From Actinomycetota bacterium (lineage in GTDB: Bacteria; Actinomycetota; Acidimicrobiia; IMCC26256; JACPCJ01): 44,577 bases of DNA. A program made the position numbers and the translations under genes. The stretch is taken from contig JACPCJ010000056.1 in NCBI GenBank assembly GCA_016179865.1, positions 1 through 44,577 on the forward strand, read 5' to 3'. The notes under the pieces were generated by a model. It worked only from the letters and a program-made list of their open reading frames with translations, ran no database searches and had not been told where the DNA came from. Below are positions 12,029-15,338 of this stretch, piece by piece. Positions within the stretch are counted from its first letter, which is position 1. Every line of letters begins with the position of its first letter.

Positions 12029-12044
12029 TCGCATCCCTCGGTGG

Positions 12045-12116
12045 TGTCGCCAAACAGCGACACTGCTAAATTGTCGTCGAGTAGCGACATTGCTACATTG
12101 TCATACTATGGCGACA
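12045..12116 (+). promoter_or_regulatory. hipBA operator array: three TGTCR-N8-CGACA inverted repeats at 12045-12062, 12072-12089, 12099-12116; -10 TACTAT (12104-12109) inside the third
   Basis: Direct reading; exact 27-bp periodicity. Confidence 0.8.
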
Positions 12117-12409
12117 TGGAGCATACCGTGAGCCGCATTCGCACCGTGCGGGATCTCGCAAACACGATTCGCGGGCATCGCCGGGAGCGCGGCTGGACCC
12201 AGGCCGAGCTCGCCCGCCGAGCACAGGTCTCACGGTCGTGGCTGATCGATGTTGAGGCGGGCAAGAGGCCGACCGTGGAGTTCGGTCGGATTCTTCGCGT
12301 GCTCGATGCGCTCGGCATCGATCTCACGACCGCGACCCCCATGCGCACCGACGCCGAAGCGGCGGTTCCACTCGACCTGGACGAGCACCTGGATCGATAT
12401 CGTCCGTGA
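12116..12409 (+). CDS. hipB: HipB-like XRE-family antitoxin
   Basis: TVRDLANTIRGHRRERGWTQAELARRAQVSRSWLIDVEAGKRPTVEFGRILRVLDALGIDL HTH; start ATG 12116 preferred over tracked 12041. Confidence 0.88.
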   Translation: MEHTVSRIRTVRDLANTIRGHRRERGWTQAELARRAQVSRSWLIDVEAGKRPTVEFGRILRVLDALGIDLTTATPMRTDAEAAVPLDLDEHLDRYRP

Positions 12410-13683
12410 CCGCAAACACTCTCGTCGTGGCGCTGCACGGAGTCGTCGCCGGCACGCTGACGCGCACGCGTACGGGCCTGCGCTTTGAGTACGCGGATGC
12501 CTATCGACACGACCCGTCGGCAACCCCGTTGTCGGTCGCCATGCCCCTCGCGGTCGAAGCACACACGCACGCGACCGTCGGGCCATGGGTACGCGGGCTC
12601 CTGCCCGATGACCTCGAGGTCCTCAGGCGGTGGGCACGCCACTTCGACGTGCGCGGCACGGCACCGTTCGACCTCCTTGCGGCGCCGATCGGTGAAGACT
12701 GCGCAGGCGCGGTCCAGTTAGCGAAACCGGAACGGATCGACGAAGTCCTCGCGCGCCCGGGAAGTGTCCACTGGCTGAGCGAGGCAGACCTGGCTGATCG
12801 TCTCGCCACACTCCGCACCGACGGTGCGAGTTGGCTCGGGCCTGACTTCACGGGGCAGTGGAGCCTCGCCGGACACCAGCCAAAGACCGCTCTCCGTCAC
12901 GAGGATGGTCGGTGGGGTGACCCCCGCGGCGCAGCCGCCACGACGCACATTCTCAAACCGGCGATTGCGGGCCTTAATGACCACGACCTCAATGAACACC
13001 TGTGTCTCGGTGCAGCTCGAAGAGCGGGCCTCGTCGTCGCGCGCACCGGTCTCGATCGCTTCGGGGACCACAGCGCGGTCGTCGTGGAGCGCTACGACCG
13101 GCGATGGGAGGCGGGCGACGTGGTGCGAGTTCACCAAGAAGACGTCTGCCAGGCGCTCGGGGTACTCCCTGACGGCAAGTACGAATCGGATGGCGGACCT
13201 TCGGCACGCGACGTCGTCACCTTGCTCCGTTCAGCCATCCCGGCTGGCGCGGCGGAAGATGCAACGTGGCGGTTCTTCGACGCGCTGGCGTGGAACTGGA
13301 TCATTGCCGGAACCGACGCGCACGCGAAGAACTACTCGCTGCTCCTCAGCGGTGATCAAGTTCGGCTCGCGCCGATGTATGACGTCGCCTCGGCGTTGCC
13401 GTACGGCTTTCATCCCCCGAAGTTGCACCTGGCGATGAAGATCGGGGGCGAATACCAGCTGAGCATCATCGAGAAGCGCCACTGGGTCCGCCAGGCCAAG
13501 GTCGCTTCGCTTGATCCAGACGCCGTGCTCGCACGGGTACATGCGCTGGCCCACCGCGCGCCCGATGCCTTCTCCGACGTCGCCAGTGCACCCGAGATCC
13601 GAGCGCTCGACAGCCCGCTCACAGCACGACTCGTCGATGCCGTCACCGCGCGAGCGCAGGAGTGCCGACGCCTCCTGTCATGA
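12406..13683 (+). CDS. hipA: HipA-like serine/threonine kinase toxin
   Basis: GLLPDDLEVLRRWA...FSLAGHQPKTAL-like segment (QWSLAGHQPKTALRHEDGRW), THILKPAIAGLNDHDLNEH, NWIIAGTDAHAKNYSLLLSGDQVRLAPMYDVAS; GTGA overlap with hipB. Confidence 0.92.
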   Translation: MTANTLVVALHGVVAGTLTRTRTGLRFEYADAYRHDPSATPLSVAMPLAVEAHTHATVGPWVRGLLPDDLEVLRRWARHFDVRGTAPFDLLAAPIGEDCAGAVQLAKPERIDEVLARPGSVHWLSEADLADRLATLRTDGASWLGPDFTGQWSLAGHQPKTALRHEDGRWGDPRGAAATTHILKPAIAGLNDHDLNEHLCLGAARRAGLVVARTGLDRFGDHSAVVVERYDRRWEAGDVVRVHQEDVCQALGVLPDGKYESDGGPSARDVVTLLRSAIPAGAAEDATWRFFDALAWNWIIAGTDAHAKNYSLLLSGDQVRLAPMYDVASALPYGFHPPKLHLAMKIGGEYQLSIIEKRHWVRQAKVASLDPDAVLARVHALAHRAPDAFSDVASAPEIRALDSPLTARLVDAVTARAQECRRLLS

Positions 13684-13879: not shown

Positions 13880-14071
13880 CTACGACCCCGCCTCGCCGAA
13901 GGCCTCCCGGGCTGATCTGGCGACCCGCTCTGCGGCGGTGACCAGACCACGGATGCGCTCACTTGCGACATCGGCCATGTCTGCTGGATCCCGGCCCTCG
14001 ATCGACCAGGGATTCAGGGAGTCGAGGTCGTCGGGGGCAAACCGGTCACGGTCAGGCGACGGCGCGCTCAT
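13880..14071 (-). pseudogene. Short HEPN-like C-terminal fragment (63 aa) next to MNT gene
   Basis: FAPDDLDSLNPWSIEGRDPADMADVASERIRGLVTAAERVARSAREAF resembles the C-terminal part of HEPN proteins (LNPxxxEaRYPxDxPdxs...A..L...A..V), lacking N-terminal helices. Confidence 0.5.
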
Positions 14072-14420
14072 ACACGACTTCGCCTTCGCGTGATGGCCAG
14101 TAGAACATCGTGCCGTTGACGTCCTTCTTCCGTTCGAACTCCGCCACATCGGTCACGACGACGTCGCACGGGATCGGGGCAGTGATGGCCCGACGTATGG
14201 CGCCCATCAGGTCGACTCGTGTCCCCGGATCGACTTCATCGAACACAACAAGGAGGTCCAGATCGCTGTCGGGGCTCTCGTCGCCACGACCCACGGAACC
14301 GAAGACGATCACCTTCGCCGGGTTGAACTCGCGGACGACGTCGCCGACCGCGGTTGACACCCATTCACGCAGGGTCTTGCCGTTCCACCTTCCATCGGCG
14401 AACACGGCTTGTTGGCTCAT
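14052..14420 (-). CDS. MNT-type nucleotidyltransferase-domain protein
   Basis: AKVIVFGSVGRGDESPDSDLDLLVVFDEV GSxxRG(x)nDxD motif; DVVVTD. Confidence 0.88.
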   Translation of the reverse strand: MSQQAVFADGRWNGKTLREWVSTAVGDVVREFNPAKVIVFGSVGRGDESPDSDLDLLVVFDEVDPGTRVDLMGAIRRAITAPIPCDVVVTDVAEFERKKDVNGTMFYWPSREGEVVYERAVA

Positions 14421-14666
14421 GCGACGACTTCCGAGAGCCGACCCTCGTGAGGGTGAAACTTGACGCGGGCATTCACACGCCAATTCTCCCACGCCGATCC
14501 CCTTGTGGGCGCCTTCCCGCGATCTGAATGGTCCCGGCAGGGCGCCGCAGGCCAGGAAGGGGCGGAGTGTGAAGGCGGCGCGAGGGTGGCCAGCTTGATC
14601 CTGGAGATGCTGGCCCGGACAGGAGTCCCCGAGCTGGCGACGGATTCTCGCGGGCATTGCCTGACG

Positions 14667-15080
14667 TCAGAGCGCGTCGGCGAGCATCTTGAGAAAGGCC
14701 GCGGGGGAGTAGACGGGGAGGCGATTCGACAGGCCGAGAAGGTGCTTGTCGCCGGAGACGATGACCGCCGAGACGCTGTGGGCGAGAGCGATCAGGTAGT
14801 CATCGCCCGGGTCGGGCGATCGGAGTGCGGGAGGGTCGTCGGGGTCGTCGTGAGCGTCCGCCCCCCGGCGGAGCAGCTCAACGAACTCTCCGGCCTCGCG
14901 GTCGCTGATGCGGGCGCGCAGCTTCGGGTACGCAAGCGCGCGTTCGAGCTCTGCCAGCACCTTTGGCGAGACGACGAGTTCGTAGGCCCCCTCAAGCCAC
15001 GCGCTGAGAACCTTCGCAGGGGAGCCTCGAGGCGTGAGCAACCCCGAGATGAGGACGTTGGGGTCGAGGACGACCCTCAC
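14667..15080 (-). CDS. PIN-domain toxin (PIN_3-like)
   Basis: MRVVLDPNVLISGLLTPRGSPAKVLSAWLEGAYELVVSPKVLAELERAL...PGDDYLIALAHSVSAVIVSGDKHLLGL. Confidence 0.88.
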   Translation of the reverse strand: MRVVLDPNVLISGLLTPRGSPAKVLSAWLEGAYELVVSPKVLAELERALAYPKLRARISDREAGEFVELLRRGADAHDDPDDPPALRSPDPGDDYLIALAHSVSAVIVSGDKHLLGLSNRLPVYSPAAFLKMLADAL

Positions 15081-15083
15081 GGG

Positions 15084-15314
15084 TCAGCGCTTCGGGCGGC
15101 GGCTGGAATGCTGCGCTTCGACGGCCAGCTCGACGGCCGTCGCCTCCGACAGGTCGCTCCGCTCCCACAGCCGGTCAAGGAGGTCGAGGCCCAGGTGTCG
15201 CCGCAGGGCTTCCTCGATGACCTCCCCGTCACCCCGACCCGTGCGTGCAGCGCGAACCTTCACCGCCCGAAGAACGTCCTCATCGATGGTGAGCGTAGTA
15301 CGCGTCTTTGCCAT
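15084..15314 (-). CDS. RHH/VapB-type antitoxin
   Basis: MAKTRTTLTIDEDVLRAVKVRAARTGRGDGEVIEEALRRHLGLDLLDRLWERSDLSEATAVELAVEAQ; 3 nt upstream of PIN gene. Confidence 0.85.
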   Translation of the reverse strand: MAKTRTTLTIDEDVLRAVKVRAARTGRGDGEVIEEALRRHLGLDLLDRLWERSDLSEATAVELAVEAQHSSRRPKR

Positions 15315-15320
15315 AGCAGC

Positions 15321-15338
15321 ATCATAGCATCTAGATGC
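15321..15338 (-). promoter_or_regulatory. Operator/promoter: palindrome GCATCTAGATGC (15327-15338) abutting minus-strand -10 TATGAT (15321-15326), 6 nt before ATG 15314
   Basis: Exact 12-bp palindrome and consensus-like -10 read in sequence. Confidence 0.65.

Follow-up and report, generated by a model that had tools for sequence, protein, structure and literature searches.

Tandem HipB-type palindromes upstream of an Actinomycetota hipBA operon: predicted autorepression operators and their counterparts across bacterial phyla

In Escherichia coli, HipB dimers bind the palindrome TATCC-N8-GGATA cooperatively at four sites in the hipBA promoter and bend the DNA by 70 degrees (PMC3376134, PMC3920265). 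In E. coli K-12 these four copies are spaced 28, 39, and 28 bp apart, and the PDB contains complexes of HipB with O1–O2 and of HipA–HipB with O2–O3. The terminal Trp of gram-negative HipBs binds HipA (PMC3376134). In Legionella pneumophila HipBST, HipB binds three evenly spaced 18-nt inverted-repeat operators (PMC10653801). Based on interrogation of a 44,577-nt contig of an Actinomycetota bacterium (JACPCJ010000056.1; hereafter the window), we propose that a hipBA locus encoded there belongs with these known autorepression arrays; a spacing rule and a two-residue recognition code, both drawn from sequence comparison, are the part of wider interest. The features of the locus are as follows.

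12044–12072, plus strand: weaker, possible second promoter-like unit, GTGTCG-N17-TAAATT, its -10 preceded by TGC, read directly
12045–12062, no strand assigned: predicted operator 1, TGTCGCCAAACAGCGACA, read directly; same array type in 55/71 related loci
12071–12076, plus strand: proposed -35, TTGTCG, which runs into operator 2 from the left and is followed by a 17-bp spacer to TACATT in a register common to relatives
12072–12089, no strand assigned: predicted operator 2, TGTCGTCGAGTAGCGACA, read directly, between the proposed -35 and -10
12091–12099, plus strand: proposed extended -10, TGC-TACATT, whose hexamer (12094–12099) shares its last base with the first of operator 3
12099–12116, no strand assigned: predicted operator 3, TGTCATACTATGGCGACA, read directly, over the predicted transcription start
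12118–12121, plus strand: Shine-Dalgarno sequence GGAG, 6 nt before the GTG, read directly
12128–12409, plus strand: hipB, probable start GTG, 93 aa, XRE/Cro helix-turn-helix antitoxin (Pfam HTH_31, HTH_3)
12406–13683, plus strand: hipA, predicted 425-aa kinase toxin (Couple_hipA and HipA_C), overlapping hipB by 4 bp

The genes downstream of the palindromes constitute a genuine hipB–hipA operon, as judged from their sequences, comprising an XRE antitoxin and a complete HipA kinase in that order, with the frames coupled by the overlap at 12406–12409. HipA has an N-terminal Couple_hipA domain and a C-terminal HipA_C kinase domain, both scoring far above cut-off, and matches solved E. coli HipA structures (E = 3e-45); the equivalents of E. 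coli S150, K181, D309, N314, and D332 are all identical. The equivalent of the hipA7 position D291 is Asp by pairwise alignment and Ala by multiple alignment, and because of this disagreement it was left out of the argument on HipA–HipA contacts. Beside hipBA, the minus strand (14052–15323) encodes an MNT-like nucleotidyltransferase and a PIN toxin with an RHH antitoxin; since these adjoin hipBA, the region downstream of thiO-thiS-thiG looks like a small toxin–antitoxin cluster.

HipB, encoded immediately upstream of hipA, is an XRE-type protein with a HipB fold: the AlphaFold2 model (pLDDT 87) has as its top Foldseek matches in the PDB the HipB proteins of Legionella, Shewanella, and E. coli, and the NCBIfam model couple_hipB scores 68.8 bits, just below its cut-off of 71.65. 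The third helix spans residues 36–43, and the recognition helix is at Arg36-Ser37. The C-terminal Trp is absent from the window HipB, which ends DRYRP; most of the collected relatives lack it too, and it is thus not a family-wide feature. A preliminary description had placed the hipB start at ATG 12116. However, the HipB N-terminus of relatives (M-x-I-R-T) has its counterpart at GTG 12128 (M-S-R-I-R-T), which lies 11 nt from the end of operator 3, within the commonest range (9–12 nt) for relatives with a Shine-Dalgarno-preceded start. ATG 12116, which overlaps the GGAG Shine-Dalgarno sequence, is less likely. The start is therefore probably GTG 12128.

Upstream of hipB, three 18-bp palindromes of the form TGTCR-N8-YGACA begin at 12045, 12072, and 12099, exactly 27 bp apart from start to start, just as had been described; tandem 5-N8-5 palindromes at this place are a feature expected of hipBA, a persistence-type, type II toxin–antitoxin system. 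TGTC opens all six half-sites, and five of the six read TGTCG. A scripted search for the exact pattern in the window returned these three sites only, whereas an automatic repeat search of the window missed the array. The inner CGNNCG is partly lost in all three copies, leaving palindromes weaker than those of most relatives, so the affinity of the window operators may be lower. That core is usually kept in relatives, where the middle N8 is accordingly not free.

To place the array in its family, 80 hipA relatives were collected, and the regions upstream of 71 hipB–hipA loci were searched for 18-base palindromes defined without any motif, with shuffled sequences as control; the relatives in all counts given here are not independent samples. 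The search yielded 147 palindromes compared with 21.5 in shuffles. Distances between palindrome pairs peak at 26, 27, and 28 bp (10, 17, and 16 pairs, versus about 0.04 expected) and at multiples of these. Chains of two to five palindromes at 26–28 bp precede 55 of the 71 loci (0.7 in shuffles) at a threshold of six of nine pairs, below which the window locus and 15 other hipA-linked loci fall. Absence of such repeats from orthologous hipBA loci had been named beforehand as a refutation of the operator reading, and they are conserved. The usual operator in relatives is TGTCnnCGwwCGnnGACA. Chained loci occur in Actinomycetota, Acidobacteriota, Alpha- and Gammaproteobacteria, Planctomycetota, Verrucomicrobiota, Gemmatimonadota, Chloroflexota, and one Binatia genome (about nine phyla, with groups assigned from record titles). 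The pitch is 27–28 bp in Actinomycetota and mostly 26 bp in Alphaproteobacteria. Searches of plasmids and viral contigs added few close relatives; on one viral contig (IMG/VR; L172:1995-2180), hipB is preceded by at least five predicted HipB operators spaced at 27 bp, exceeding the number at most chromosomal loci.

The 27-bp period could, in principle, reflect nine codons of a longer HipB N-terminus translated from GTG 12041, as the frame is open from that position and 27 is divisible by three. We give this protein-coding explanation next to no credence: the 26- and 28-bp periods of relatives break the frame, the conserved M-x-I-R-T begins downstream of the array, and in-frame stops are found in 72 of 102 arrays. 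The preliminary description was thus right to distrust a start at 12041, given the in-frame stop between array and HipB in those 72 arrays of relatives, although the codon there is GTG and not ATG as it had stated.

An indication of what binds the array is the covariation between HipB recognition-helix residues and operator bases among the 102 loci with arrays. Arg at helix residue 2 accompanies G at operator base 2 (79/82), and Gln accompanies A (12/13), a signal partly confounded with ancestry because residue 2 largely separates the HipB subfamilies. Helix residue 3 tracks bases 4–6: C4 is found where this residue is Gln, G4 where it is Arg or Glu, ACC at bases 5–7 where it is Lys, and an E. 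coli-like TATnC where it is Ala. Half-sites are more alike among loci sharing residue 3, and this still holds where HipA identity is under 35%. In a clade-block permutation over 34 clade-by-residue units, the observed value was reached in 4/1000 permutations for base 4 and 0/1000 for base 5; bases 2, 3, and 6–8 were not significant against residue 3 in the same permutation. Read onto loci added later, and tallied by eye where the helix begins with S-R or similarly, the residue-3 rule fits 10 of 11 (Gln 5/6, Arg 4/4, Lys 1/1). The Arg36-Ser37 of the window HipB fits TGTCG, with the Ser37 preference defined by only five independent units. In the phage 434 repressor, the counterparts of these two helix residues are Gln28 and Gln29, classical base-reading positions. 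Because the operator bases track the HipB recognition-helix residues, HipB is the near-certain ligand of the array. The literature searched, which lay outside the main hipBA structural papers, contained no description of a family-wide spacing rule or of the two-residue code.

Alternatively, the array might bind another host regulator acting on hipBA from outside, for example a stress repressor or a LexA-like protein; the 2.5-Mb genome holds 22 TGTCR-N8-YGACA sites, and the 19 outside the array compare with four for a reversed-pattern control. We regard this as very improbable. None of these 19 sites adjoins another, with clustering confined to the three before hipB, and the dependence of operator sequence on the HipB helix holds across phyla. 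Furthermore, the genome carries another hipBA locus (L294, contig C123), which encodes a diverged HipB with helix S-E-R-T and is preceded by other palindromes, TCGGCATGATCATGCCGA; a different helix paired with different palindromes argues against a shared external regulator. We therefore return to HipB: very probably, on conservation and covariation, the three palindromes are, as had been proposed, operators for HipB, whose dimer, encoded just downstream, would autorepress hipBA.

The proposed promoter lies across operators 2 and 3. Over the 102 arrays, the best TATAAT register is a hexamer ending at operator base 1 (mean 3.01 of 6 matches; 39% with at least four), ahead of the next-best register (mean 2.45). 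In the window this register gives TACATT (12094–12099), probably the -10, and the proposed promoter scores 4/6 at the -35 and 4/6 at the -10, plus TG. An automatic scan at standard threshold returned no promoter, and the proposal thus rests on the family register. TACTAT, the -10 named at first, is indeed part of site 3; it lacks a -35 partner at 17 bp and falls outside the conserved register. From these positions, we infer that transcription starts within operator 3. The possible second promoter-like unit (12044–12072) stands exactly one period (27 bp) upstream of the proposed hipBA promoter.

On the predicted array, one HipB recognition helix would address each half-site, with Arg36 meeting the G that is invariant in TGT and Ser37 lying close to bases 4–5. 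HipB or HipB–HipA on operator 2 would sit between the -35 and -10, and on operator 3 would cover the transcription start; a complex splitting the promoter elements and another covering the start would render the operon autorepressed. If HipB were lost, the array would empty and synthesis would resume. With a pitch of 26–28 bp, neighboring complexes on the bent DNA would be offset by roughly half a turn, as in E. coli HipB–HipA complexes on adjacent operators. The period had been singled out as an oddity; given that 26–28 bp is the family norm and that E. coli has 28/39/28, half-turn placement of neighboring HipB dimers, as read from operator positions, is the known hipBA geometry.

Among 219 non-redundant hipBA loci, the 26–28-bp spacing accounts for 78 locus counts, and about half have no detected 26–28-bp chain (weak palindromes or other subfamilies). 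Minor groups at 37–40 bp (about a dozen loci) and 48–50 bp (five loci), not all independent, partly interrelated, and possibly including a few chance palindromes, lie about one and two helical turns beyond 26–28. Two sets of HipB subfamilies carry TTTATGCGAACGCATAAA (L147, L151, L154, L146, L143) and TTCCCGATCGGGAA (L183, L205, L208, L211), with spacings of 39 and 49–50 bp, respectively. HipB might bind the array with a pitch that reflects only where promoter elements must be placed, and not cooperative HipB–HipA contacts, since the -35 and -10 occupy fixed places in the unit. We consider this unlikely: many arrays have three to seven operators, above what a promoter needs, and the operators of one locus are evenly spaced in 47 of 56 cases, against 18 expected; other subfamilies step by about one turn, and E. 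coli O2–O3 are 39 bp apart. Cooperative, HipA-assisted filling is likely the reason for the conserved pitch.

A single rule across bacteria is a more tentative proposition, to which we give somewhat less than even weight: HipA would bridge HipB dimers at a fixed helical phase (26–28 bp, or longer by about one or two turns), and two helix residues would set the operator word. If the phased-array rule were true, operator number would set the amount of toxin parked on the promoter. On these findings, hipBA operator arrays, so far studied in a few proteobacteria, reach across about nine phyla, and two testable rules emerge, namely a spacing near 27 bp and the prediction of operator bases 2 and 4–5 from HipB helix residues 2 and 3. 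Such rules would let operators be assigned from sequence alone, would predict cross-talk between hipBA modules in one cell, and would supply sets of independent repressor–operator pairs.

Among known systems, the window shares with relatives (L017, L052, L066, L110, and others) a 26–28-bp palindrome array and the same promoter register with hipBA downstream, although the relatives have stronger palindromes with a CGNNCG core and arms that follow the HipB helix. The Legionella HipB (8ezt) is the closest solved structure to the window HipB; unlike the window, which encodes a single full-length 425-aa HipA, Legionella HipBST has a toxin split into HipS and HipT, and its operators are separated by 53-bp gaps (71 bp center to center). 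The Shewanella oneidensis HipBA–operator structures (PDB 4pu3/4pu4) share the HipB fold (Foldseek ranks 4–6) and show a HipB–HipA–DNA ternary complex, although the HipA sequence match to the window is only 4e-20. E. coli K-12 O1–O4 are likewise 18-bp 5-N8-5 palindromes upstream of hipB–hipA (PMC3376134), with an O1–O2 and O3–O4 pitch of 28 bp, near the 27 bp of the window, and an AT-rich stretch resembling a -10 between O3 and O4, in agreement with the early reading of a common layout with different arms. The window differs in having TGTCG/CGACA in place of TATCC/GGATA, three sites rather than four, a spacing of 27 bp throughout where E. coli has a 39-bp gap, and a HipB helix with R-S rather than Q-A; arms other than TATCC/GGATA are expected because Arg replaces Gln at helix position 2.
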